This document shows positions 28,429 to 42,181 of a stretch of 62,103 nt of DNA, piece by piece (the first letter of the stretch is position 1; every line of letters starts with the position of its first letter). The DNA is from Anaerolineaceae bacterium (GTDB lineage Bacteria > Chloroflexota > Anaerolineae > Aggregatilineales > Phototrophicaceae). The DNA lies in NCBI GenBank assembly GCA_002699585.1, contig PABP01000003.1:1-62103 (forward strand), written 5' to 3'. The position numbers were made by a program, and so were the translations under genes. The notes under the pieces are model-generated. The model did not search any database. It saw only the letters and a list, made by a program, of their open reading frames with translations, and had not been told where the DNA came from.

Positions 28429-31400
28429 CTAGTCTGCAGAGCCACTTGTGGAGTACGATGTGATTAAAACAGGCTTCAATTTATAGGCTAAGGGCACAGC
28501 CGGCTCACCCTCTGTGGGGATCCTGAAAATGCTAGCCCCATCATTGAAGTAGATCATGCCATCTGTTTCGTCCGGCATCGGATCACGTGCGCCTTCGATA
28601 CCCGTATCAATCGGGTTGATGCCATCCAGCCCGTAGCGATACATCTGTAGCTGGCCGTTGTACTCACAATTGAAGTAAATCTTGAGGGACGTTGGCCCAA
28701 ACTGCGGCGCATAGCAGGCCGCACCTTGCATCTGCTGCGTGATCGGGTTCTCTTGCAGGCGATTGAGTTCCAACGCGTAGATATTACGCCCGGTCGGGTC
28801 ATTGCGGACGAATGCCAGGTAACGGCCATTCGGCGCAACAGCCGGATCAAACGCATTGTCTGCGACCAGCAACGGCACCTGGACATCACGGCCATTGCCG
28901 ATTTGCAGCGCATAGATCGACGGCGTGCCGTTGGCATCGGCCAGCGTCATAAACAGGGTGCTGCCATCGGCTGACCAGGAAGGAGCCGACATGACGGGCG
29001 TTAGGCTTGGTGGGAAGCTGATGATCGTGTCTATAGACAATGCCTCATCATTCCCATAGGTGGTTTCAATCCGGGTAAAGTTGAGCGAAACGTGTTCCCT
29101 CGGGGCAGTGTCTGTTTGCGAACTACCATCCGGGCCAGCAACCTGTATCCGGCGAACAGTCGACGGTAAACCAGCCGGGTCTATCCCCTGCGCAAAGAAG
29201 CCAAAAGTCTTGCCATCTGGCGAAAGCACAACGGGCGAATCGGGCATGGGTTGGCTCATTGGGTCGAGCGGTAACTGGACCAGGCCCAGTGACCCATTCT
29301 CAGGATTCGGGTTGGCCGATGATGGCAGCGCGAATATCCCGGCAAAGTTGCCGTTCTCATCAGCGCCAATCATGATCACGCGGGCACGGCCACTGGGCAA
29401 AATCGGATCATCAGGAACACAGCCGAAGCATGTACCCAAGTCTGTCGGCTGGCCCTCGCCGACGCCGGGGCCTTCTGTTGGCGGGACCGCAGTCGGTGGT
29501 ACGACTTCCGCCAGCGGCGTGGCTGTTGGCAAGAGCGCTGGTGTATTCGTCGGCAGGGCCTGCTCCGGCGGCGATTCTGTTGGCGTAAAGGTCGGCGTGG
29601 CGACGACACCATCGGCTGCTGTGGGGTTCGCGATCAAGCCCAGCTCAGTTGCCGTTGCTTCTGAGGTAGGGTTCGCGATGATCACCGGCGGGGTGTTGGT
29701 CGGTAGGGGCGTTGATGTCGGCAACACGCCGATTTGTGGCAAAGTCGCGGTTGGGTTGGCGACGAAAGCGCCCTGGGTTGGCGTCGGCAAAACGGTGAAT
29801 CCATCATTGCCTTGCCCCACTGGCGCACATAGCTCATTGGTGGGACGGTCCAGCGCGGCGATTTTGATATACCAGGGCGAACTGGCATCCACTTCGGTCT
29901 GATTGAAAATAGCCGCACCCAGGGTCATCGTATCACCTTGAATACACTCTGGCGGGGCAGGCACATTATTGGGGACGCTGCCATCCGCCGCGTATTCAAT
30001 GGCCGCGCCACAGGGATCAATGCTCTTCAGAATGCGATAGAGTGTTTCCATACCCAGGCTCGGATTATGAGTCGCCAGAATGCGGAAGTTACCCGTACAT
30101 TGGCCGTTACCATTGGCGACCTGCGGCAAAGCAGGCTGCAAATCTTGCGAGAGCGGGTAGTTTTCCAACAGTTGGAAGCCAGGGCACCCCTGGGCTGCTG
30201 CCGCACCGGCATCAAACGCGCCGCGCACCGCATCAGAGAAAGCCCGGTTGCTTACCTCGTCAACCTGGCCACCACAGCTATTCACCAGCATATTGAAGTA
30301 ATCTACATTGGCCTGGGTTGTGGTCCCCAGCAAGCCAATATCTTCATAAAAGCCACACGTCGACGAAAGACTAGAAAACTCGACGGGGTCAACGTTGACA
30401 GCAGCGATTTTTGCCAGCATATCGTCTGTATCCGGCACATCGCAGTAGGCCATACTCATCGGAATATTGTGCTCCGCGACCGGGCTGGAGGTACTCGTCA
30501 CACCGCCATGGGCCAGGTCAAACAGCAGCAGGCAATAATCCCCGATTTCACCCTGGGCGATGCTGGCCAGGTAATCACGCGTTTCTACGGGAACCCGACT
30601 GTAAATCGAGAAGAAGGTATCTGACCCCAGGGTACCGATCTCTTCGCCCAGGACGCTTGTGCAGCTAGGGAAGCTCACGTCTTGTACAGGTTGTGGATTG
30701 AAAAACAGGTCATCAATCTGGGATTGGGCCGCAGCACAGGGGTCCGCCTGGTTGATGATGCTCAGTGCCAGGAAAGTGGGCAGCGCATTCACCTGGGGGA
30801 TCAAGCCCTGGCAACCCTCCATACGGGCGGCGGCTTCTCGCGCCTGCTGAACGGCAGGCAGCAGTAGACCTACCTGTGTTGACCCATCATCAGGCGCGGT
30901 CAGTTGCGCTTGCGTTGGGACAAGCTCTGGCTGGGTTGGGACAAGCTCGACGCCATCGGTCTGGGGCAAAGTGCTGCAATTACCGCCCTGGCGCGTCACA
31001 AAGGCCGCTACCCAGCCCCCATTGATCTGTAACCAGGAGCTATCGGCATTGCGACCGATCACACTATAGATTTCAAAGGGATTGAGGGAGCCAACGATAG
31101 CTGTGTCAGTTGATGTACCCTGACGAACATTCACGGCATCCGGTCCCAGGGTCGCCAACACACAAGCCCCATCAGTCGGCAGTACGGGCAGCGGAATCGG
31201 CGTAGCGGTTGGGGCACACCCGTTGAGTTCACGCGGGCCAAATGCATTCGGGCAAGCATCGATATTATCCGTCAGGCCATCCCCATCACTATCAACGGGC
31301 GCTGGACAGCCGCCATTATCAACCGGGCCGACTTCCCTGGGGCAATTATCGCGCGCATCAGGGACGCCATCGCCGTCACTATCGACATCCGGGGAGCCTG

Positions 31401-31746
31401 TCACAGTAAACTGGGCGATATTCGAACGAGCCGGACCACCCGCTTCTCCACCACACCAGAACGAAACGAACGTACCGGGGGCAGACGTCGACGGCACAAC
31501 ATAGGTGAGCTGGCCAGCCATCGTACCCAGTAGCTGGGCCTGACTGCCACTCGGTTGTGCGTAGCAATTGTTGCTGCGATTGCCACCCAAATCATTTATC
31601 AGCACGGTGGTGCCCACCGGGCCGTTATTCGGCAGGATTTCGATTATTGGAGATGTACTTTGGGCAAGTACGGGAACAAAACAAAGGACCAGGATCAAAA
31701 CAATAATACCAACTCTAAGGTGATACCTACTTCGCCATAACGACAT
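28429..31746 (-). CDS. Large secreted multidomain protein (IPT-like, Tsp3, SH3b, TolB-like)
   Basis: A 1105-residue exported protein: signal/anchor (VGIIVLILVLCFVPVLA), a beta domain opening IIEILPNNGPVGTTVLINDL, two thrombospondin-3-like calcium loops (DSDGDGVPDARDNCP and DSDGDGLTDNIDACP, about residues 125-180), a bacterial SH3 domain (VNVRQGTSTDTAIVGSLNP..WLQINGGWVAAF, about 200-260), a Cys-rich helical central part, a long TP/NPT-rich linker (about 650-775) and a TolB-like beta-propeller (VVLSPDGKTFGFFA, APSWSADGSTLFMT, AVAPNGRYLAFVRN; about 785-1105). The start at 31746 follows AGGAGA; the frame runs open to 31806 without one. Probably a wall-associated binding protein. Confidence 0.85.
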   Translation of the reverse strand: MSLWRSRYHLRVGIIVLILVLCFVPVLAQSTSPIIEILPNNGPVGTTVLINDLGGNRSNNCYAQPSGSQAQLLGTMAGQLTYVVPSTSAPGTFVSFWCGGEAGGPARSNIAQFTVTGSPDVDSDGDGVPDARDNCPREVGPVDNGGCPAPVDSDGDGLTDNIDACPNAFGPRELNGCAPTATPIPLPVLPTDGACVLATLGPDAVNVRQGTSTDTAIVGSLNPFEIYSVIGRNADSSWLQINGGWVAAFVTRQGGNCSTLPQTDGVELVPTQPELVPTQAQLTAPDDGSTQVGLLLPAVQQAREAAARMEGCQGLIPQVNALPTFLALSIINQADPCAAAQSQIDDLFFNPQPVQDVSFPSCTSVLGEEIGTLGSDTFFSIYSRVPVETRDYLASIAQGEIGDYCLLLFDLAHGGVTSTSSPVAEHNIPMSMAYCDVPDTDDMLAKIAAVNVDPVEFSSLSSTCGFYEDIGLLGTTTQANVDYFNMLVNSCGGQVDEVSNRAFSDAVRGAFDAGAAAAQGCPGFQLLENYPLSQDLQPALPQVANGNGQCTGNFRILATHNPSLGMETLYRILKSIDPCGAAIEYAADGSVPNNVPAPPECIQGDTMTLGAAIFNQTEVDASSPWYIKIAALDRPTNELCAPVGQGNDGFTVLPTPTQGAFVANPTATLPQIGVLPTSTPLPTNTPPVIIANPTSEATATELGLIANPTAADGVVATPTFTPTESPPEQALPTNTPALLPTATPLAEVVPPTAVPPTEGPGVGEGQPTDLGTCFGCVPDDPILPSGRARVIMIGADENGNFAGIFALPSSANPNPENGSLGLVQLPLDPMSQPMPDSPVVLSPDGKTFGFFAQGIDPAGLPSTVRRIQVAGPDGSSQTDTAPREHVSLNFTRIETTYGNDEALSIDTIISFPPSLTPVMSAPSWSADGSTLFMTLADANGTPSIYALQIGNGRDVQVPLLVADNAFDPAVAPNGRYLAFVRNDPTGRNIYALELNRLQENPITQQMQGAACYAPQFGPTSLKIYFNCEYNGQLQMYRYGLDGINPIDTGIEGARDPMPDETDGMIYFNDGASIFRIPTEGEPAVPLAYKLKPVLITSYSTSGSAD

Positions 31747-31903
31747 TGGCTGTCTCCTATTTGTGCAACTCGGAAATCGTATTGCAAAATAAAGATTGAG
31801 AACCATTCCCCCATTAGCTCAATCATCGTAAGGGTTTCACTTAGCATCCGTCAATAAAAGTGGATCAAAAAGTGGTAAAAATCTAAACAAAAAATGAAGC
31901 ATT

Positions 31904-31984: not shown

Positions 31985-33502
31985 TTACTGGCAAAAATCA
32001 TAGTCAGCTATTTCCGCGCCTTCCCAGATGCTAGGGACTGCATCGATCTCCATGTGGCGGACGGTGGCTGTGCCGCCATTGGCAAACAGCGTGATGCCCG
32101 TGTTCTGCGGATCGCTAAAAGTCTGGTTGCTGATGACGAGCATGCCATCATTGGCGAAAATCTCTACAGAAGATTCATCGACGAAGATGCGCAGTGTCAC
32201 CGTGTCACCTTCTATGGGCAGCGGCCCGCGTGTGACGCGCGTGAAGTCGCTGATATATTCGCCGGGTCCAGTCTGGTCGGTACGGCGCACCACCAGTTCG
32301 GATGTGGCTTGTTCGATAGCAATCGTGGTCGGTTCATTGGCGCCATCATGCACACGCAAGCCAACTTCGCTGGCGGTTCCCGGCTCAATCTCAAGGGTGA
32401 TGTCGAGCAAGCGGCCTTCGATACCCTCCAGGGGGTAGTCACCATCCAGCACAATATCATCCCAGACGCCAAGCGGCGTATTCTGGGCGCGGTCCGGTGC
32501 GATGGGCGTTTGCTGCAAGCGAATACCCTCGCTTGTATGGACCAAAGTTAGTTCGCGGACCAGGGTGTTGGCGCCACGCCAGGTCGATGTTGGCGTACGG
32601 TCGGCATACTTCCAGTTGCTCATCCAGCCGATGTAGAGGATGCGGCCATCAGGTGCATTGCTCCAGGTGGTCCCGGCGTAGTTATCCGAGCCATAATCCA
32701 TCCACAGGATTTGCTCAGAGTCTTCGACCGAGAAGCGCTCACCATCAAAATCACCGATGAAATACTGGATGCCATTGCCCCCGGCTGGCGAATAATCGCC
32801 GACGCTGACCAGCAGCACCCATTTGGTTTCACCATCAATGGTTAAGGGGAACAGGTCCGGCACCTCCCAGATGCTCATCTGGTGCCCACCGGAGAAGTTG
32901 CTGGCATAGTCCCACTTGGTCAGGTTAGTCGATGTGAAGAACAGCACTTCGCGCCCCGCAGAGATAACCATCGCCCAACGGCCTGTTGGCTCATGCCAGA
33001 ACACCTTCGGATCACGGAAATCGTGATGCACGGCAGGCAGTACCGGGTTGCCTTCGTACTTCGTCCAGGTGCGCCCGTTATCGTGGCTGTAGGCGACACC
33101 CTGCGTCTGGTTCTGGAAGGAGAAGATAGCAACCATCGCATTTTCGCCAAAGCCCGACGTATTATTGACATCGATAACTGCACTTCCCGACCAGATCGGA
33201 CCGTTGTCATCCGGGTAAAGGGCGATGGGCAGCGTTTCCCAGTGAATCAAATCCGGCGAGACAGCATGTCCCCAGTGCATGGGTCCCCAGGTCTCACTAA
33301 ATGGGTGGAACTGGTAAAACAAGTGATACTCACCATCGACATAGACCATGCCATTAGGATCGTTCATCCAGCGGCAGGGTGGACTATAGTGAAATTGGGG
33401 ACGAAAAGGTTCTTTGTACATATCATGGGCATCCTGGGCAACTAGGGCCAATACGCTGAAGAATAGGACAATAAAGAGAATACGCGATATGAGTCGAGAC
33501 AT
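31985..33502 (-). CDS. Secreted GH32 fructan hydrolase (levanase/inulinase type)
   Basis: A 505-residue exported GH32 enzyme: signal peptide (ILFIVLFFSVLALVA), five-blade propeller with nucleophile Asp48 in RWMNDPNG, transition-state stabiliser Asp164 in DFRDPKVFW, and acid/base Glu213 in WEVPDLF. A C-terminal beta-sandwich follows (FVDESSVEIFAND, about 370-495). It would hydrolyse fructan or sucrose outside the membrane, feeding the ABC importer encoded upstream. It is separated from the BNR gene by 118 bases with no obvious own promoter and belongs to the same strand cluster. Confidence 0.9.
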   Translation of the reverse strand: MSRLISRILFIVLFFSVLALVAQDAHDMYKEPFRPQFHYSPPCRWMNDPNGMVYVDGEYHLFYQFHPFSETWGPMHWGHAVSPDLIHWETLPIALYPDDNGPIWSGSAVIDVNNTSGFGENAMVAIFSFQNQTQGVAYSHDNGRTWTKYEGNPVLPAVHHDFRDPKVFWHEPTGRWAMVISAGREVLFFTSTNLTKWDYASNFSGGHQMSIWEVPDLFPLTIDGETKWVLLVSVGDYSPAGGNGIQYFIGDFDGERFSVEDSEQILWMDYGSDNYAGTTWSNAPDGRILYIGWMSNWKYADRTPTSTWRGANTLVRELTLVHTSEGIRLQQTPIAPDRAQNTPLGVWDDIVLDGDYPLEGIEGRLLDITLEIEPGTASEVGLRVHDGANEPTTIAIEQATSELVVRRTDQTGPGEYISDFTRVTRGPLPIEGDTVTLRIFVDESSVEIFANDGMLVISNQTFSDPQNTGITLFANGGTATVRHMEIDAVPSIWEGAEIADYDFCQ

Positions 33503-33620
33503 AATTCAGTCAATTCTACTAAATAAAAACAAAGCGATAGACAATCGGCCACCGACGCAGTGCCGACACGCTGAAAACCACTATTTTGCTGTTTAGCGAT
33601 CAGTGACAAGTGATGAACGA

Positions 33621-34490
33621 CTATAGATTGAACGCCATGAGATCACCTTCAGCAAAGCCCACAATCACACCACCCGGACGAGGTAACATCGCCAACGGCG
33701 TCTGCTGTAGGAATGCCTCTACCCGTGTTGCTTCTGTCAGGTCAGGACCCAAGCGCAGCAAGGCATCTTCGGCCAACACATAGACGGCATCCATCGCCAC
33801 AATCTGGTTGATAGCTTTACCCTGCCACTGGCCTAGATCAACCGCTTGCCAACTTTCGCCCAGGTCATCGGATTGTAGCAGGTCGCCATTCTCGCTACCC
33901 ACAAGCAGGGTGCCATCAAAGAAGGCCAACGCCAACCAGGGCGCTTGCCCTGTCGACAGTACCAGCCGCTGCCAGGAACGCCCGCCGTTGGCGCTGCGGT
34001 ACAGTCCCGTTTCCGTCGCAGCGAAGATCGTCTGGTCGCCGCTGAAATTGGGCGAAATCGCTACCGCATGCACGTCCAGGTCGATAAGGCCGTAATTCCA
34101 GGGCACCCAGGTAAGCCCACCATCGCCCGTGACGAACACGCCATCCTCGGCAGTACCCGCCACAGCCACACCAGCGGCGTCAAAGGTGGGTGAGAGCGCC
34201 AGGGCTGTCACCAGCGGCGCAGGCTTCGCCAACCCAATCAACGACCAGGATTGACCGTCATCTTCAGAGCGCATGATGGCGCCATGGGTTCCCGCGAATA
34301 CCGTATTCCCGCTTGTGGCAACAGCAGTTGCGACATAATTTGCCACATCCGCTACCGGGACAAGCTGCCAGCTCGCGCCATTATCATCGGAGCCATACAG
34401 ACCTGTCGCGCGAGCAGCATATAACCGCCCCGCCTCCGATGAAGCCAGCGCATAAACTACACCTACATCAATGCGTTCGTTAGCCATCAT
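33621..34490 (-). CDS. BNR/YCF48-like beta-propeller protein
   Basis: A 289-residue protein without signal peptide, made of about six propeller blades with BNR/Asp-box units: GLYGSDDNGASWQLV, AIMRSEDDGQSWSLI, GVFVTGDGGLTWVPW, GLYRSANGGRSWQRL, DLLQSDDLGESWQAV. Such propellers bind sugars or act as assembly factors. Its ATG overlaps the stop of the chaperonin-like gene (ATGA), so translation is coupled. Cytoplasmic by prediction. A link of propeller and chaperonin to sugar transport is inferred from gene order only. Confidence 0.8.
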   Translation of the reverse strand: MMANERIDVGVVYALASSEAGRLYAARATGLYGSDDNGASWQLVPVADVANYVATAVATSGNTVFAGTHGAIMRSEDDGQSWSLIGLAKPAPLVTALALSPTFDAAGVAVAGTAEDGVFVTGDGGLTWVPWNYGLIDLDVHAVAISPNFSGDQTIFAATETGLYRSANGGRSWQRLVLSTGQAPWLALAFFDGTLLVGSENGDLLQSDDLGESWQAVDLGQWQGKAINQIVAMDAVYVLAEDALLRLGPDLTEATRVEAFLQQTPLAMLPRPGGVIVGFAEGDLMAFNL

Positions 34491-36121
34491 TCGGGTTTGC
34501 CTATCATTTCTGGGTTGGAGACATGCACCAGCACATCCACCGTCAGGGCCAGGGCTGCTGTGCTGATAGCATTGCGCACACAGCTTTGCATCAATAGCAA
34601 ACTATCAACAATGCCCTCGTCAGCCATATTGATCATCAAGCCGCTGCGAGCATCAAACCCGATTGCAGGGCGTTTGTGTTGCAGCTTGGCCATGACTTCA
34701 CTGGGGTCATACCCGGCATTGCACCAGATGGTGCGGGCCGGTGCAGCCAGCGCTTCGATCAAGATATTATAGGCGGCGCGTTCGTCGGTATCGCGCGTGG
34801 ATTTTGCCTGCTGCTGCAAAGCTTGGCGACAGGCCAACAGGCCGATGCCACCACCGGGAACAACCCCACCTTGCATCGCCAGATACATGGCCTGACGGGT
34901 GCGTTCAGCCAAACTTTTCTGAAGGGCGATTTCCGTTTCTGTAAAGCCGCCCACCCACAGCGTCACCGAGCCACCCTGTAGGTTGCCGATGCGTTTACGA
35001 GCGCGTTCGCGCTCCTCATGATCGTGGGTCGTGTGGTAAAAGCGCTGCAATCGCTCCAGATGCGCGATCAGTTTGCGCTTGTCGCCACGGCCACCGACCA
35101 GCCCGAAGGTGCGCTTATCCACCCAGATGCGGCGTGCCTTACCAAAATGCCCGGTCGTGACCCGTTCCAGAGTATCCCCAGCTTCTTTAATGAGGGGCGT
35201 CGCGCCCGTCAGCAGGCTGATGTCCTCCATCGCCTGGATGCGATCCGTCGCATTCAGGCCAGGTAACTTGACGGCCATCACCTTAAACGTATCCATACGG
35301 CTGTTGTTGGTCGTCAGCAGCGAAACAGCGGCATCCGACATATTGGTCGTGATGATCAGCAGCGACGAGATGCCTGCTTCGTGGGCCGCTTTGAGTACCG
35401 GGAACAATTCGCGGTGGTCGTTGATTTCAAAGTTGCAGATAAAGACCGACGTATTGTCCATGTCGGAGCGGTTGGCTGACCCTTCCGGGAACAAGGCGCT
35501 GGACACCGCGCCGGAATAGTAGTATGTGCCCTGGACGTATTCCCGGCGCAAAGTCCGGCCATAATCCTCACGAATTTCCAGGCGACCGTATTCACCGATC
35601 AAGTCGAACGATTCGCCGATCAGATCAGCCATCTCATCGTCATTGCATAACGATGCCGCGACCCGCTTGAGCTGCTCCTCACCAGCGATCCGGAAGCTGT
35701 TCTCGGCGAGGGCATCCTGCAAGTTGGGAATGGCACTCTCCAAATGACGGCGCAGCTTCATGGCGTTGCCGCCTGCTGCGATGTAACGCACGCCAGCCTG
35801 GAAGATCGCCTCTAACAGCACAGCCGTCGTGGCGGTGCCATCACCCATATCTTCACTCTGACGGACCAGCAGCGAGCGCACCAGCATGGCGCCCATATCC
35901 ACATCCCGGTTTCGCAGCTCAATGATACGCCGCGCAATGAGGCCACCATCGTCCAAAAACTCTGGCAACGATTCCGTCGTATGGATCGGGTCGATAGCCA
36001 CGCCCCCAGCGGTCGGGCCGAGGGTGGGCCGGATGGCATCGACCATTTGCTGGATGCCACGTTGCATGGCGTGATATACATTTGGCTGGAAGACCAGCCC
36101 AGGAGTTTGCGAGCCTCTCAT
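34487..36121 (-). CDS. Divergent GroEL-like (group I) chaperonin paralogue
   Basis: A 544-residue cpn60 homologue. Conserved: VDAIRPTLGPTAGGVAID near the start, FLDDGGLIARRIIEL (Asp52-type residue), EDMGDGTATTAVLL (ATP loop, residues 93-100), and GGVVPGGGIG. The stretch aligned with the GroEL ATPase Asp398 reads AERTRQAMYLAMQGGVV, with no Asp, and the Gly/Met C-tail is missing. It may thus bind but hydrolyse ATP poorly. The apical part is strongly changed. No groES neighbour. It sits between sugar permeases and a BNR propeller in one operon, which is unusual and suggests a dedicated folding or scaffold role. Confidence 0.85.
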   Translation of the reverse strand: MRGSQTPGLVFQPNVYHAMQRGIQQMVDAIRPTLGPTAGGVAIDPIHTTESLPEFLDDGGLIARRIIELRNRDVDMGAMLVRSLLVRQSEDMGDGTATTAVLLEAIFQAGVRYIAAGGNAMKLRRHLESAIPNLQDALAENSFRIAGEEQLKRVAASLCNDDEMADLIGESFDLIGEYGRLEIREDYGRTLRREYVQGTYYYSGAVSSALFPEGSANRSDMDNTSVFICNFEINDHRELFPVLKAAHEAGISSLLIITTNMSDAAVSLLTTNNSRMDTFKVMAVKLPGLNATDRIQAMEDISLLTGATPLIKEAGDTLERVTTGHFGKARRIWVDKRTFGLVGGRGDKRKLIAHLERLQRFYHTTHDHEERERARKRIGNLQGGSVTLWVGGFTETEIALQKSLAERTRQAMYLAMQGGVVPGGGIGLLACRQALQQQAKSTRDTDERAAYNILIEALAAPARTIWCNAGYDPSEVMAKLQHKRPAIGFDARSGLMINMADEGIVDSLLLMQSCVRNAISTAALALTVDVLVHVSNPEMIGKPE

Positions 36122-36131
36122 CTTTGTCTCG

Positions 36132-37019
36132 CTAACCCTTCAACCCGCCGACCTGCAAACCTTCCAGCAAGTAGCGTTGGCCAAAGATATACATAATGAT
36201 GACCGGAAGCGTCGACAGGACGATACCCGCCAAAACCACCGAGATGCTGCCTGTCCCCATGTAGCCCTGTAACCGCACGATACCCAGCGTAATCGGGAAG
36301 CGCTCTTCCGTATTCATGAAGATGAGCGGCGTCAGATAATCGTTCCACTTGGCGTTGAAGGTCAACACAGCCAGAATCGCCATACCGGGCGATGCCAGCG
36401 GCAGGTAAATCCGCCGGAAAATTTGCCATTGATTGGCCCCATCGATCATGGCCGCTTCTTCATAATCATCGGGTATCTGTAAGAAGTATTGGCGCAGCAA
36501 GAACGTCCCAAAGGCCGTCGCTAAGCTGGGTACGATCAAAGCGCCGAGTGTATCCCCCAGTCCCAGTACGCGCGTCACCAGGATAAAGACCGGGATCAAC
36601 GTCGCCTGACCAGGGATCATCAAGGTCGCCAGCACAATCCAGAAGATCAGATTACGACCGGGGAACTTGAGACGGGCAAACGCATAGCCCGCCAGTGAGG
36701 CAGTGAACACCTGGCCAATCACAACCGACATCGTAATGATGAAGCTGTTCGCCATCTGATCCCAAAATGGGATTTCTTCAAAGACTTCTTCGTAGTTACT
36801 GACGTCAAAATCGACCGGAATCCACTCCGGGGGCACAGTGAAGGACTCCGCCGGGGTACGCAGCGATGTCGAAACGACCCAGACGTAGGGCATGATCATA
36901 AAGAAAGCGATGACGGTCAGTAAGCCAAAGCCCAGGAACTTGTTGATACGGTTGCGTAGCTGCTGGAACTCATGGGATGCGAAGTAGGATTGGTTTTCGT
37001 TTTTGCTCAAAGTAGCCAT
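36132..37019 (-). CDS. CUT1 ABC transporter permease (MalG-type)
   Basis: A 295-residue inner-membrane permease with six TM segments. The EAA loop that contacts the ATPase is DDYEEAAMIDGANQWQIFRR followed by IYLPLASPG. The N-terminal half has MIMPYVWVVSTSLRTPAE typical of the MalG partner. Start at 37019 has TAGGAG 6 bases upstream; an ATG at 37025 would abut it. Gap to the partner permease is 9 bases. Confidence 0.9.
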   Translation of the reverse strand: MATLSKNENQSYFASHEFQQLRNRINKFLGFGLLTVIAFFMIMPYVWVVSTSLRTPAESFTVPPEWIPVDFDVSNYEEVFEEIPFWDQMANSFIITMSVVIGQVFTASLAGYAFARLKFPGRNLIFWIVLATLMIPGQATLIPVFILVTRVLGLGDTLGALIVPSLATAFGTFLLRQYFLQIPDDYEEAAMIDGANQWQIFRRIYLPLASPGMAILAVLTFNAKWNDYLTPLIFMNTEERFPITLGIVRLQGYMGTGSISVVLAGIVLSTLPVIIMYIFGQRYLLEGLQVGGLKG

Positions 37020-37028
37020 TGTCATCTC

Positions 37029-37982
37029 CTATCCGTAGAATACCCAGCGGCGGCTGAGATAGAATTGAATGCCCGTGACAATCATGATGATGGCGAAAAG
37101 AACCAGCGCAATCGCAGAGCCATAGCCCAGTTCCAAATTGCCGAATGCCGAGTCATACATCATCATCACGACGGTACGACTGGCATCACCAGGCCCACCG
37201 CGCGTCATGATGAATGGCTCATCGAAGAATTGCAGCATCTTGATGACATCGGTTACGGTGGCAAATAGTATCGTCGGGCTAAGCAGCGGGATGGTGATCG
37301 ACCATAATTTGCGCCACCCCTTAGCGCCATCGACATCAGCCGCTTCCAAGATCTCTTCCGGCAAGGCGCTGACACCGCCCAGATAAATGATGAAAGTGAA
37401 GCCCAGGTTACGCCAAACCGTCGTCAGCGCGATGGTAATCAGCACGACATTGCTGCTGGTCAACCAGGGTATTTTCTCCATACCAAGCTGGCTCAAATAG
37501 TAGTTGATGACGCCAAATTCCTGGTGGAACATGTAGCCCAGCATCACTGCTACAGACGCGCCGGAAAGCAATACCGGGAAGAAATAGACCGTTCTATAAA
37601 AATAGCCTAATAAGCCACCCGTCAGTCGCTTGACGAGGATGGCCAACGCCATAGCCAGCACTTCTAAGATGGCGACCGTCATAAACATCAGGATGAACGT
37701 ATTCTTGAAACTGACAAAAACACGGGAATCCCCGGCCAACCGTTCAAAATTGGCAAAGCCAACGTACTCCGGCGGGCGAAACACGTTCCATTCATGAAAA
37801 CTAAGTACAAACGAATAGAGCATCGGCCCCACGATGAAGATCAACAGGCCAATGACCGTCGGCGCAATGAATAAGAATCCCATCAGGGCACGTTGGCGTT
37901 TGATGCCGTTCATCGTATCGGCAGCAAGCCAACGTGCTATGGCATTACGCTTCGGCTTCTCATCATAAGTTGCTGTAGTCAC
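37029..37982 (-). CDS. CUT1 ABC transporter permease (MalF-type)
   Basis: A 317-residue permease with about six TM helices; the EAA loop is EILEAADVDGAKGWRKLWSI followed by TIPLLSP. LLIFIVGPMLYSFVLSFHEW is the usual first helix of the UgpA/MalF group. GTG start at 37982 with AGAGGTGA upstream. It forms the channel with the MalG-type partner; an ATPase is not encoded nearby, so a shared MsiK/MalK-type ATPase is likely. Confidence 0.9.
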   Translation of the reverse strand: MTTATYDEKPKRNAIARWLAADTMNGIKRQRALMGFLFIAPTVIGLLIFIVGPMLYSFVLSFHEWNVFRPPEYVGFANFERLAGDSRVFVSFKNTFILMFMTVAILEVLAMALAILVKRLTGGLLGYFYRTVYFFPVLLSGASVAVMLGYMFHQEFGVINYYLSQLGMEKIPWLTSSNVVLITIALTTVWRNLGFTFIIYLGGVSALPEEILEAADVDGAKGWRKLWSITIPLLSPTILFATVTDVIKMLQFFDEPFIMTRGGPGDASRTVVMMMYDSAFGNLELGYGSAIALVLFAIIMIVTGIQFYLSRRWVFYG

Positions 37983-38053
37983 AAATCACCTCTTTTATCC
38001 TGGGAAAGGGACTCAGAGAGTCCCTTTCCTTGTGATCTGCAGATTGATAGGCG

Positions 38054-39460
38054 TTATGCGTTCCGTGCGTAGAGGGCTTCTAGCTCGGCTTGCATGCCAT
38101 CAAGTGCTTCTTGCGGGGTTTGTTCACCGCTGGTTGCAAGGCTGGTGAAGCGCGTGTAGATATTCGTCATTTCGATTGAGAACACTGGCGCTGGGATCGG
38201 ACCGGTATCCGGGCGATCATCCAACGCTGAGTAGAAGACTTCCCAGTTCTCAAGGCCGGTCTGGCCCCAATATTCTGCGGTATTCATCGAACGACGTACT
38301 GGGGTTGTCGAGGCCGAGGCCATCCACGGGATCATCAGCATGACATCAGGATCGGTGTTGAACTTGAGGAATTCCCAGGCTTCATCTTCACCGCCGCCCC
38401 CATTGAGGATCCAGGCACCACCGGTACCGAACTGGTGACGTTGTGATTTCCACTCTGGCCAGAACTGAACTTCGAACGAACCCGGTTCCAGGCCCTGGTT
38501 AATCAGCGAGCCAGCCCAGAAGCCACCTGCAATCGACATACCTAGCTTGCCGGAGACGAAGAAACCTTCCAGCGTGCTACCGCCGCCGATTTCAGCTTGC
38601 GGGGCATAGCCACGGTCCGTCAAGGAAATGACATATTCCAGGGCTTCAACCATCGCCGGGTTATTGGCTTGGGGTGCGGGCCAACGCCAGCCACCACCAC
38701 GCCCTTCGGCCAGTGGTTCATCAGCATAGAACGTATCCCAGATGGCTTCGCCGCCGGGTGCCCGTTCTTCGGTCAGCAGGTTAGTGTCGTTGACGAAGAA
38801 CCAGGGCGTCCAGCTACCCCAAAGACGGTTGGTCCAACCAAAGCCGAACGAATCGCCCTCAGAGCCGAGGCCCGTTAAGGCAGCCGCATATTCGTCAAAG
38901 TCATCCTTGGTCCACTCGGCACCCGGGACTTCCAGGCCAGCTTCTGCAAGCAATTCTTTATTAAAGTAAATGTGCGCCGCATTGAAGTCTCGGGGGATCT
39001 GATACAGATCGCCTTCGTACATCATGCCTTCGATCAAAGTCGGGCTGACGTCGGCAAAGTATTCGGCCATTTCTTCCTGATCGTCCAGTGCACGCTGGGT
39101 CAGCGGCAGTGCCAGACCTTCACCCGCGTAAAGCTGGGTCGCTTCGGTAGCGGCATAACCGATGTTGACGGGTTGACCAGCAGCCATCTGTGTCAGAATC
39201 TTGCTGGCGATTTCAGCATGGTCAACGCCTTCTACCGAAACGAATTCTATATTGACGTTCGGGTACAGTTCGGTAAATGCGTTAACAATATCGGTGTAGT
39301 TATCCGGGCTTTCCTGGAAGCGCAGGGTCACAGATTCACCCTGTGCTGCCGGTTGTGCGAAGACCTTTACCCCCGGGATGAGGTTCACACCCATTGCAGC
39401 CGCGCCAGTAGCCGTAAGCTTAATCAGATCACGGCGGCTCAGTTTCTTATTTTCACTCAT
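38054..39460 (-). CDS. ABC sugar-binding protein, Tat-exported
   Basis: A 468-residue extracellular solute-binding protein, family 1. The N-terminus has a Tat motif, LSRRDLIKLTATGAAAMGVN, with cleavage near KVFAQPAA. VTLRFQESPDNYTDIVNAFT opens the mature domain and IYFNKELLAEAGLEVPG is the standard mid-segment. Start at 39460 follows GGAGG; the frame is open to 39481. It would capture fructo-oligosaccharide or sucrose and hand it to the two permeases. Specificity is inferred from the flanking GH32 genes. Confidence 0.9.
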   Translation of the reverse strand: MSENKKLSRRDLIKLTATGAAAMGVNLIPGVKVFAQPAAQGESVTLRFQESPDNYTDIVNAFTELYPNVNIEFVSVEGVDHAEIASKILTQMAAGQPVNIGYAATEATQLYAGEGLALPLTQRALDDQEEMAEYFADVSPTLIEGMMYEGDLYQIPRDFNAAHIYFNKELLAEAGLEVPGAEWTKDDFDEYAAALTGLGSEGDSFGFGWTNRLWGSWTPWFFVNDTNLLTEERAPGGEAIWDTFYADEPLAEGRGGGWRWPAPQANNPAMVEALEYVISLTDRGYAPQAEIGGGSTLEGFFVSGKLGMSIAGGFWAGSLINQGLEPGSFEVQFWPEWKSQRHQFGTGGAWILNGGGGEDEAWEFLKFNTDPDVMLMIPWMASASTTPVRRSMNTAEYWGQTGLENWEVFYSALDDRPDTGPIPAPVFSIEMTNIYTRFTSLATSGEQTPQEALDGMQAELEALYARNA

Positions 39461-39565
39461 TAGGGCCTCCAAGAGTAACATGTGTACTAATTACGGAATC
39501 CAACAAAAAGAGCGTTTGCATTTCTCCTTCTCTCTTCACCGGCCTCCTAACACTAAAGACTGGCT

Positions 39566-40990
39566 TTATTGCCAGATTGACGGCATTTTCCAAATATCGA
39601 GCGACATCAGCCCGGTAGAAGGGCCGTAAAGTCGGACTTGCTGTTGGCTTTGATGATGGGGATAAACACGAGCAGTCAGGCTGGTACGCTCATTAGCGAT
39701 GACTTCTAACACGGAGCCATCGAGCAAAATACGCAGGGTCAAATCTTCATCGGCGGCAAGGGGATGGACAGCAGCCCGAGTATAGGTAGAAATAGCACCG
39801 TTTGTTTCTGTTGTCAGGGTATAGACCATCAATTGCTGGCGGTCGCTATCATAAACAACACGGGTGCATTCATCGCCATCAGGCGCACCTAGCACCGTCA
39901 AGCCAAATGTTCCACTGGCATCAGCTGAATAAGTGGCTTCAATATCGACATTGTGAGATTCAGCAATCAGTTGGTCTTCGTTTATAGTGCTGGCCGTGTA
40001 GTGGAAGTGCTCGCCCCGGATAGATGCCAATTCCGGTACGGGCTGCATATGCAGCCGATTCTGGTCGTCTAATGTGAGCACACGCGGAATCGATTGGACG
40101 CCTGACCAACCTGCGAAGCTTTGATCGCGATCAGAGCGATTCTCGCGCAACCAACCGAACAAAATACGTCGATCCTGACCATCGACAAAGGTCAGGGGTG
40201 CATAGAGCGTGCCATAGTCCAGTACATCAACATGCTCTGGCACAAACCGATGATCGACATAATCGCCGACAAAATAATGCACCGTGTCGGTAGAGTGGCC
40301 CGTATGCGAGGAAATAATCAGCACCCATTTATCGCCCAGCTTAAAGAAATTCGGGCACTCCCACATCAAGCCGTAGCGCTCCTCGGTGCCTTCCAGCAGC
40401 GGGTTCAGGTATTCCCAATCCACCAGGTTCTGCGAGCGATAGAGGAAAATGACGCCAGCTTTGCCTTCAATGCGAGAGCCGACGACCATGTACCAGCCAT
40501 CATCCTCACGCCATACATACGGATCACGGAAGTCGCGCGTCTGATTAGAGACAGCCGGGACCTCGCTGATGACCGGGTTCTGCGGGTGTTTTTGCCAGGT
40601 GATCATATCGTCATCACTGGTGGCGATACACTGCGTCTGGATGTTGGCGCGGTCGCGCGTCCCTGTGTAGATCAACGTCGGTGTGCCATCATTATCAACT
40701 GCCGAACCAGAGTAGCAACCAAATTCATCTGGCCCACCTGAGGTAGGCCTGATCGCAATCGGCAAGTCCTGCCAATGAATCAAGTCATCGCTGACAGCAT
40801 GGCCCCAACTCATATTGCCCCACAGCGGGCCAAACGGATTGTGTTGATAGAAAAGATGGGTCTGGCCCTTCCAGAACAACAACCCGTTGGGGTCATTCAT
40901 CCAATTGGAAGGGGGCAAAAAATGGTACTGAGGACGTTGAAAGTCTTCGCTAAATGATTGCCTAATAGCCGTAGGATTCTGTTCATTCAT
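39566..40990 (-). CDS. Cytoplasmic GH32 beta-fructosidase
   Basis: A 474-residue GH32 enzyme without signal peptide. Nucleophile Asp33 in NWMNDPNG, stabiliser Asp156 in DFRDPYVW, acid/base Glu211 in MWECPNFF; C-terminal beta-sandwich ends at LRILLDGSVLEVIANER. Unlike the secreted enzyme it keeps the canonical EC(P) motif. It would split imported fructo-oligosaccharides or sucrose. First gene of the long minus-strand operon and divergent from the LacI gene, sharing its control region. Confidence 0.9.
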   Translation of the reverse strand: MNEQNPTAIRQSFSEDFQRPQYHFLPPSNWMNDPNGLLFWKGQTHLFYQHNPFGPLWGNMSWGHAVSDDLIHWQDLPIAIRPTSGGPDEFGCYSGSAVDNDGTPTLIYTGTRDRANIQTQCIATSDDDMITWQKHPQNPVISEVPAVSNQTRDFRDPYVWREDDGWYMVVGSRIEGKAGVIFLYRSQNLVDWEYLNPLLEGTEERYGLMWECPNFFKLGDKWVLIISSHTGHSTDTVHYFVGDYVDHRFVPEHVDVLDYGTLYAPLTFVDGQDRRILFGWLRENRSDRDQSFAGWSGVQSIPRVLTLDDQNRLHMQPVPELASIRGEHFHYTASTINEDQLIAESHNVDIEATYSADASGTFGLTVLGAPDGDECTRVVYDSDRQQLMVYTLTTETNGAISTYTRAAVHPLAADEDLTLRILLDGSVLEVIANERTSLTARVYPHHQSQQQVRLYGPSTGLMSLDIWKMPSIWQ

Positions 40991-41026
40991 AAGAAAAATC
41001 GCTGGATACTATTATTTAAATACCAT

Positions 41027-41044
41027 TATGGGATCGATCCCATA
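41027..41044. promoter_or_regulatory. LacI-type operator
   Basis: A perfect 18-bp palindrome TATGGGATCGATCCCATA with central CG, the hallmark of LacI-family sites. It lies between the divergent GH32 start (40990) and the LacI gene start (41159), so one site could control both the fructan operon and the regulator. Confidence 0.8.
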
Positions 41045-41158
41045 CGCAAAACTTTACCACACAGCGCGGCTCATCGCAAATTTTCCTGTCGAAGTTGCAC
41101 AAACTATGATCTAATGATTGAATTGATTTTAGAAACAGGTTACGAGTTATTGCGAGAT

Positions 41159-42181
41159 ATGCCTCAGAAATATACGATTCTCGACATCGCTAAAACAGCG
41201 GGCGTTAGTCGGGGCACCGTGTCGCGTGTCCTGAACAATCACCCATCCGTAAGCGACCAGACACGCCAGAAAGTTCTGGAAGTCATTAAACGCCTGGATT
41301 ACAGCCCCAACTTCAGTGCGCGCTCTTTACGGACAGCCGCATCCAACATGGTCGGCTTTGCAACGGATGAAGTGATTACGACGCCATTTGCCGTCGATAT
41401 CATCCGCGGCGCTCAAGATACCTTATCGCAATATGGCAAGGTCATGATCGCCATCAACACGGGTTATGACAGCCAAGCTATGCAAAAGTCTATGGAAGTT
41501 TTGCTAGAACGCCGCGTTGAGGGCATTGTTTACGCGGCTATGTTCCATCGTGAAATCGATATTCCGGCGCAACTCGTCGAACGCATCCCTGTTGTGCTGG
41601 CCAACTGCTTTTCTAAAGACCAGTTGCTGCCCTCGGTCGTACCAGATGAGGTATCCGGCGGCTATAACGCGACCAAAGCACTGCTTGATGCCGGCCATAC
41701 GCGGATTGGGTTCATCAATCTATCGCGCGCCTGGGGAGAACCTATTGCGCCACTACCTGCCTCCGATGGCCGCTTAAAAGGGTATAAAAAAGCACTCGCA
41801 GAAGCAGATGTTCCCTATGATGAGGACTTATTGCATTACACGGACCAACGCCCTACTAGCAGCTATGACAAAACGCTAGAAATCATGCAAAAGGATGACC
41901 CGCCAACGGCCATTTTCTGTGGTAATGACCGCACGGCAATGGGTTGCTATAACGCGCTCATGTCACTTTCGCTACGTATCCCGGATGATGTGGCTGTGGT
42001 GGGGTTTGATAACCAGTCCAATCTTTGCGAAGCACTCTATCCATCCCTAACGACGGTGCAACTGCCACACTATGAAATGGGCCAATGGGCTGTCGAGTAT
42101 TTGCTCAATCATGCAGATGACTCTGTTGATCCGCCGCAGCATAAACTGAATTGTCCCCTGGTCACACGTGATTCCGTATAA
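41159..42181 (+). CDS. LacI family transcriptional regulator
   Basis: A 340-residue regulator. The HTH opens YTILDIAKTAGVSRGTVSRV with hinge helix YSPNFSARSLRT; the periplasmic-binding-protein-like core has VGFATDEVITTPFAVDII and PTAIFCGNDRTAMGCYNAL, and ends VVGFDNQSN..LTTVQLPHYEMG. The frame is open from 40958, but the family start is MPQKYT at 41159; its ribosome site is weak. It most likely represses the fructan operon in the absence of inducer sugar. Confidence 0.9.
   Translation: MPQKYTILDIAKTAGVSRGTVSRVLNNHPSVSDQTRQKVLEVIKRLDYSPNFSARSLRTAASNMVGFATDEVITTPFAVDIIRGAQDTLSQYGKVMIAINTGYDSQAMQKSMEVLLERRVEGIVYAAMFHREIDIPAQLVERIPVVLANCFSKDQLLPSVVPDEVSGGYNATKALLDAGHTRIGFINLSRAWGEPIAPLPASDGRLKGYKKALAEADVPYDEDLLHYTDQRPTSSYDKTLEIMQKDDPPTAIFCGNDRTAMGCYNALMSLSLRIPDDVAVVGFDNQSNLCEALYPSLTTVQLPHYEMGQWAVEYLLNHADDSVDPPQHKLNCPLVTRDSV

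Follow-up and report, generated by a model that had tools for sequence, protein, structure and literature searches.

An Asp398-less chaperonin paralogue and a BNR propeller form a conserved gene pair at a fructan-utilization locus of Chloroflexota

Why should a chaperonin and a β-propeller be encoded in the middle of a sugar-uptake operon? The question is raised by positions 31,985 to 42,181 of contig PABP01000003.1 (assembly GCA_002699585.1) from an Anaerolineaceae bacterium of the phylum Chloroflexota, of which we analyzed a stretch of 62,103 nucleotides, hereafter the window. The initial annotation had described a fructan-utilization locus in which a chaperonin paralogue and a BNR propeller, translationally coupled to each other, lie among genes for two GH32 enzymes, a sugar-binding protein, and two permeases. 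Profile scans and coordinates agree with it on the place and product of all eight genes of the locus, the pair lies inside the gene row, and its two genes overlap in a shared ATGA. As described below, the pair is conserved but not fructan-specific, and its chaperonin lacks the aspartate equivalent to Asp398 of GroEL. The features of the pair are as follows.

34487 to 36121, minus strand: GroEL-like (Group I) chaperonin paralogue of 544 residues, with Arg at the equivalent of Asp398 and no Gly-Met tail (PF00118, 131.6 bits; below the cut-offs of the NCBIfam GroEL models; residue and tail tallies)
34487 to 34490, minus strand: ATGA, in which the chaperonin stop and the BNR start overlap by four bases
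33621 to 34490, minus strand: BNR/Asp-box β-propeller of 289 residues, without a signal peptide and probably with seven blades (PF02012 and PF14870 above cut-off; AlphaFold2 model; structural matches)

Conservation of the chaperonin–BNR pair

The gene order is more than chance, as it recurs in other genomes. A groundwater Chloroflexi metagenome-assembled genome (L032) carries all eight genes from LacI to the second GH32 in identical order with the four-base overlap retained, its chaperonin being 60% and its BNR protein 44% identical to those of the window. LacI through BNR are likewise present in two loci from the same order as the source genome (L063 and L064, the former ending soon after BNR), and in a member of the same family (L075) related binding-protein, permease, and GH32-like genes surround the pair. 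With the order conserved in L032, L063, and L064, we rejected a chance neighborhood or insertion. The expected conservation beside CUT1 and GH32 genes holds for these three loci and part of L075, but not beyond them, where the pair stands in other contexts. Not every relative, then, has the pair in an unrelated context: the near ones share that of this locus, and the far ones do not.

We searched 396 genomes of the class with a profile built from 32 chaperonins (A1), scoring at most three chaperonin candidates per genome (at most four in the binding-protein scan described below), such that the counts are lower bounds. Taking as close relatives those of at least 683 bits, together with a copy interrupted by a stop (L074), we found them in at least 52 places in 43 genomes and 12 family-level groups. 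BNR is the next same-strand downstream gene in 47 of these 52, compared with 0 of 21 canonical GroEL loci (Fisher p = 6e-14, relatedness ignored); these controls comprise 20 loci from class-scan rows near 428–443 bits and the copy in the source genome itself (L002). Loci fetched by chaperonin score alone (L103–L123) give a fairer figure, with BNR next downstream in 16 of 21 and one of the misses at a contig edge. Where the pair is intact, the gap between the genes is at most 20 bases in 42 of 46.

Farther out, BNR accompanies 21 of 40 more remote class members (458–670 bits), 15 times in a long form of ~620–710 residues. In the phylum outside the class, the pair occurs in L034 and a chaperonin with a long BNR in L035, L036, L038, and L050–L052, with none in L037 and L040–L049. 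Genome contigs were scanned with exact peptide patterns taken from the window protein, an approach that overlooks relatives near 40% identity; profile searches covered the phylum. No relative was found in one scan of viral contigs with A1, and plasmid matches by tblastn were all below 60% identity, the 15 listed of 1309 lying at 30–33%, the level of ordinary GroEL. On these grounds, a phage or plasmid origin was rejected.

The two genes also diverge in parallel. Over 32 loci, chaperonin and BNR pairwise distances correlate with r = 0.855 (0 of 5000 permutations), and pairs stay together down to ~36% (chaperonin) and ~33% (BNR) identity while the surrounding genes change. The ratio of nonsynonymous to synonymous substitution rates (dN/dS) in ten pairs, several with dS above 1, is 0.03–0.23 for the chaperonin and 0.07–0.38 for BNR, values that point to purifying selection on both genes and by which we rejected pseudogene decay.

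Altered residues of the chaperonin and fold of its partner

The window chaperonin belongs to the Cpn60_TCP1 family (PF00118), matching over residues 28–532 well above the cut-off of 34.3 bits, and is homologous to GroEL over approximately residues 9–533. It does not reach the cut-off of the GroEL equivalog TIGR02348 (327.9 versus 582.1 bits). Residues were tallied from an alignment of family members with canonical GroELs in E. coli numbering, position 398 being assigned by motif. This position is Asp in 21 of 21 canonical GroELs and in 0 of 54 family members (Arg in 45, Ala in 4, Tyr in 3, Glu in 1, and Gln in 1), the window protein carrying Arg. In contrast to this loss and the frequent loss of Asp52 (Asp in 25, Asn in 16, and Ser in 10 of 53 members), the Mg/ATP-binding Asp87 of the GDGT motif is retained in the window protein and in 53 of 53 readable members, as are, with single exceptions, Thr30, Gly32, Pro33 (one Ala), Gly414/415 (one Ala), and Asp495 of the ATP pocket.

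The family further differs from the GroEL/GroES system in its altered GroES/substrate face, where Tyr203 is replaced by Glu or Asp in 31 of 54 members and Tyr199 by Leu, Val, or Ala in 49 of 54. Elsewhere on the binding face, positions 237, 259, and 262 remain largely hydrophobic. The ordinary groEL of the source genome (G000; 6.7 Mb, 42 contigs) lies at C28:789460–791025 with the sole Cpn10 match of the genome directly before it (G000:C28:788995–789273), and no groES adjoins the window chaperonin or occurs in its gene row. A Gly-Met tail is found in 0 of 52 full-length family members versus 13 of 21 canonical controls, a weak family mark, since 8 of the 21 controls lack it as well.

Because Asp398 is lost while most of the ATP pocket is kept, and because the E. 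coli GroEL D398A mutant retains ~2% of ATPase activity with slowed release (PMC3813556), the family chaperonin is expected to bind ATP with very slow turnover. In a FastTree tree of 132 proteins (built without the columns around Asp398 and without five partial or broken sequences, and joining some long branches), Asp398 is lost in 55 of 55 chaperonins with a short BNR, 18 of 21 with a long BNR, 23 of 35 with no BNR, and 0 of 21 canonical GroELs. Since 23 of the 35 without BNR have lost it too, the loss marks a wider paralogue group and not pairing alone. On this tree, 2 changes account for the distribution of Asp398 and 13 for that of BNR pairing, numbers compatible with more than one order of gain and loss.

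The partner is a member of the BNR/Asp-box family (PF02012; 33.9 versus 27 bits) and also exceeds the cut-off of PF14870. An AlphaFold2 model from two sequences (predicted local distance difference test [pLDDT] 78.9; predicted template-modeling score [pTM] 0.81) shows six blades with confidence and a seventh weakly. Over residues 4–289, the best structural matches include a designed seven-blade protein, virginiamycin B lyase, RACK1, and WDR5. The modeled fold is probably seven-bladed, a count whose match to the seven-fold GroEL ring is suggestive only. By eye, the N termini in an alignment of the BNR set carry no signal peptide, and the protein should therefore share the cytoplasm with the chaperonin.

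Foldseek matches include sugar-active GH74 enzymes, a heparin-sensing propeller, and 5oj3 and 5ojr. The latter two are among the top matches and, together with the PF14870 score and the BNR-type fold, liken the protein to YCF48/HCF136, the propeller that serves as an assembly factor of photosystem II. It differs in falling far short of the YCF48 model NF010237 (40.6 versus 326 bits), and we know of no chaperonin link for YCF48/HCF136.

Several other arrangements were seen among the chaperonin paralogues and BNR genes. A PhyH-type dioxygenase gene takes the place of BNR after Asp398-less paralogues in L130 (8581–9423), L141 (11014–11913), and L147 (10866–11720), the upstream genes in L130 and L147 being permease-like by size and spacing only. 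A membrane-like protein follows the paralogue in L124 (10753–11640), L125 (2510–3499), and L127 (3185–4132), those of L125 and L127 having no Pfam match. Paralogues with Glu, Arg, His, or Ala at position 398 stand with BNR proteins of ~620–710 residues, perhaps double propellers, in L134, L135, L137, and L149–L160. BNR lies directly behind two CUT1 permeases in L092 (9411–10334) and L093 (10224–11156), with a variant chaperonin ~8 kb upstream.

Gene row and genomic contexts

The pair belongs to a single minus-strand row running from 40990 to 31985 in the order GH32, binding protein, permease 1, permease 2, chaperonin, BNR, and GH32, with LacI divergent on the plus strand. The remaining features are as follows.

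41159 to 42181, plus strand: LacI-family regulator, divergent (open reading frame 40958–42181; start at 41159 probable, from comparison with L032)
41027 to 41044: perfect 18-bp palindrome with central CG, between LacI and GH32
39566 to 40990, minus strand: GH32 enzyme without a signal peptide (PF00251, PF08244; WMNDPNG, RDP, and EC motifs by eye)
38054 to 39481, minus strand: sugar-binding protein with a Tat-like RR motif by eye (SBP_bac_8, SBP_bac_1)
37029 to 37982, minus strand: CUT1-type ATP-binding cassette (ABC) permease 1 (BPD_transp_1)
36132 to 37025, minus strand: CUT1-type ABC permease 2 (BPD_transp_1)
31985 to 33502, minus strand: GH32 enzyme with a signal peptide by eye (PF00251, PF08244)
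31939 to 31910, minus strand: terminator-like hairpin of 13 pairs, after the last gene

Ten bases separate the permease stop from the chaperonin start, and the genes of the row likely share one transcript. The palindrome is a likely LacI operator. Single weak terminator- or promoter-like sites mean little, given the totals of the whole scan against shuffled sequence (16 versus 10.4 and 11 versus 10.3, respectively). The Pfam TAT_signal model gave no match to the binding protein of the window at E 0.001. Just downstream of the operon, at 28429–31806, lies a gene for a large protein with TSP3 repeats, an SH3_3 domain, and PD40-type repeats.

Like other CUT1 GH32 sugar operons, the row combines a binding protein, two BPD_transp_1 permeases, GH32 enzymes, and LacI, with MalK-type ATPases elsewhere in the genome; it differs in having the chaperonin and propeller inside. 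The initial annotation had remarked on a missing ATPase and fructokinase, and none was indeed present among the nine proteins scanned. This is ordinary, however, because such genes lie elsewhere in the genome, with 3 MalK-type and 21 PfkB-family matches away from the locus, and we rejected the absence as an anomaly. The importer would use the shared ATPase of the genome.

An upstream neighbor was called in 49 of 53 close-relative loci, on the same strand in 29. This same-strand neighbor is an ABC permease in 14 of the 29, versus 6 of 90 genes at least six places away (Fisher p = 2e-6; 8e-4 if the denominator is taken as 49; relatedness ignored). Among the 49 downstream genes called, on either strand, are 10 fucosidases, all from one genus, 3 GH32 enzymes, 2 aldehyde ferredoxin oxidoreductases (AFOR), and many single cases. 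Contexts of the pair elsewhere include other sugar ABC transporters, fucosidases, AFOR, DUF2330, and others; neighbors in far loci come from a simple longest-ORF (open reading frame) caller, and some may be miscalled.

Viewed from the transporter, binding proteins at least 50% identical to that of the window occur in at least 12 of the 396 genomes. No chaperonin relative is among the matches listed on seven contigs with such binding proteins (G468:C107, G543:C20, G679:C110, G708:C62, G712:C178, G650:C79, and G582:C21), which are short, a break in G650 being able to hide a link; in G582, such proteins are also encoded next to the pair, on a different contig (L075). One genome of the same genus was searched (G677); it gave no match to the binding protein at E 1e-60 or to BNR at E 0.001, and a single chaperonin match at the canonical level. 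Because these binding proteins occur without a listed chaperonin and the pair adjoins other genes, pair and transporter are probably each dispensable for the other. Tandem arrays were also seen, with four GH32-like genes at L075 1699–8788 and four sugar-binding-protein copies at G582:C21:109246–116063.

What the pair may do

The two genes are observed to be paired, tightly coupled, under purifying selection, and diverging in parallel; the chaperonin has lost Asp398 and has no groES of its own. Beyond these observations, our best reading, taken as a whole and with moderate confidence, is that of a conserved two-gene module in which a slow or locked GroEL paralogue and a dedicated propeller partner are built into uptake operons. 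The chaperonin would form a ring, bind ATP, turn it over very slowly, and not use GroES in the usual way. It would bind the propeller during synthesis, helping the propeller ends to close and/or keeping the propeller docked on the seven-fold ring. Made together with the fructan importer under LacI control, the pair would assist the uptake machinery, at best guess by helping to assemble or hold the permeases or the binding protein, the latter being a protein that the Tat route would export in folded form.

Most likely, by analogy with clients of the eukaryotic chaperonin CCT, the propeller would be folded, held, or displayed by this dedicated slow or ATP-locked ring. β-Propellers are known CCT clients, and closure of the last blade has been proposed as a problem (PMC6599039). 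CCT/TRiC with its WD40 clients is similar in joining a chaperonin to β-propeller partners, an analogy only; it is a Group II hetero-oligomer with many clients, whereas the window encodes a Group I paralogue with one gene-coupled propeller, for which a folding role is suggested by that analogy. Atypical chaperonins such as chlamydial GroEL2 and GroEL3 are divergent second or third genes away from groES (PMC5904260), as is the extra copy in the window, which matches the NCBIfam chlamydial models weakly and far below cut-off (124 and 111 of 600). Section 9 of that source lists five phyla in which multiple chaperonins abound, without Chloroflexota, and does not mention a propeller partner.

Several observations weigh against the module as we picture it. 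A1 was mostly built on BNR-paired chaperonins (28 of 32 found through BNR), which favors the 47 of 52 figure, and co-inheritance alone also predicts parallel divergence; the dS values above 1 count here as well. Among close relatives, 5 of 52 lack an adjacent BNR (L104, L105, L110, L120, and one at a contig edge), a large NHL-repeat protein standing beside the chaperonin in L104 and an alcohol dehydrogenase in L110. BNR is missing in 19 of the 40 more remote class members, some with a PhyH or membrane-like protein instead, and BNR relatives without an adjacent chaperonin occur in L085, L090, L092, and L093. Because some loci lack BNR and others carry such replacements, the partner of these paralogues can be absent or different. 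Chaperonins with a long BNR in L035, L036, and L038 retain Asp398, and loss and pairing are not strictly linked. A GroEL-size chamber would be overfilled by a long BNR. The AlphaFold2 monomer model of the chaperonin is of very low confidence (pLDDT 38), and the case for contact between the two proteins is inferential rather than direct.

Other explanations fare less well. A propeller serving as lid or co-chaperonin, its seven-bladed disc capping the seven-fold ring in place of GroES, would suit the absence of an own groES, the altered Tyr199 and Tyr203 positions, the seven-blade fit of the model, and the frequent pairing; we nevertheless hold it to be unlikely given the double-size long BNR partners and the paralogues without BNR, and the symmetry match may be coincidence, with no binding motif identified. 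The initial annotation had favored folding or assembly of the exported GH32 or binding protein of this locus. The position of the pair inside the row, its retention with GH32/CUT1 genes in the nearest relatives, and the Tat-like signal of the binding protein (by eye) speak for this, the Tat route exporting folded proteins. A role so specific did not hold up, however, and we consider it distinctly unlikely, since the pair also adjoins unrelated genes and binding-protein relatives of at least 50% identity lie on contigs without a listed chaperonin.

A sensor or regulatory complex, with the locked chaperonin as mere scaffold and the propeller binding a sugar or a regulatory protein (LacI or the shared ATPase, for instance), draws on the frequent position behind sugar ABC permeases and on the Foldseek matches to GH74 enzymes and a heparin-sensing propeller, but LacI relatives occur in only some loci and likeness of fold shows no function, leaving it with little probability in our view. 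We give slightly less credence still to a pair of genes that are each useful alone and are inherited together although their products do not interact: either gene occurs without the other, but close relatives span 12 family-level groups and diverged pairs stay together while their neighbors change. A bolder form of the module reading, offered tentatively and more doubtful than the module itself, is a new chaperonin machine, namely, an ATP-locked, GroEL-derived seven-fold ring with a seven-bladed propeller as plug, lid, or cargo instead of GroES, acting as an operon-specific accessory of carbohydrate importers in part of Chloroflexota.

The chaperonin superfamily and BNR propellers are already known; of the coupled pair with Asp398 loss, we found no description in the open-access literature. 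Chaperonins are usually regarded as folding machines of broad use, closed by a lid and timed by an ATP clock. The version described here lacks the catalytic aspartate of that clock; it is kept over a wide range of genomes and tied by gene order to one propeller, and the return of this pair across dozens of related genomes speaks for a dedicated chaperonin machine that is little known. If the two proteins bind, bacteria would have their own equivalent of CCT with its propeller clients, and the D398A mutant made in the laboratory would have a counterpart in nature; the pair would also offer a small two-gene system for dissecting chaperonin–propeller recognition. If true, the module would add an unexpected extra layer to sugar uptake in environmental bacteria.

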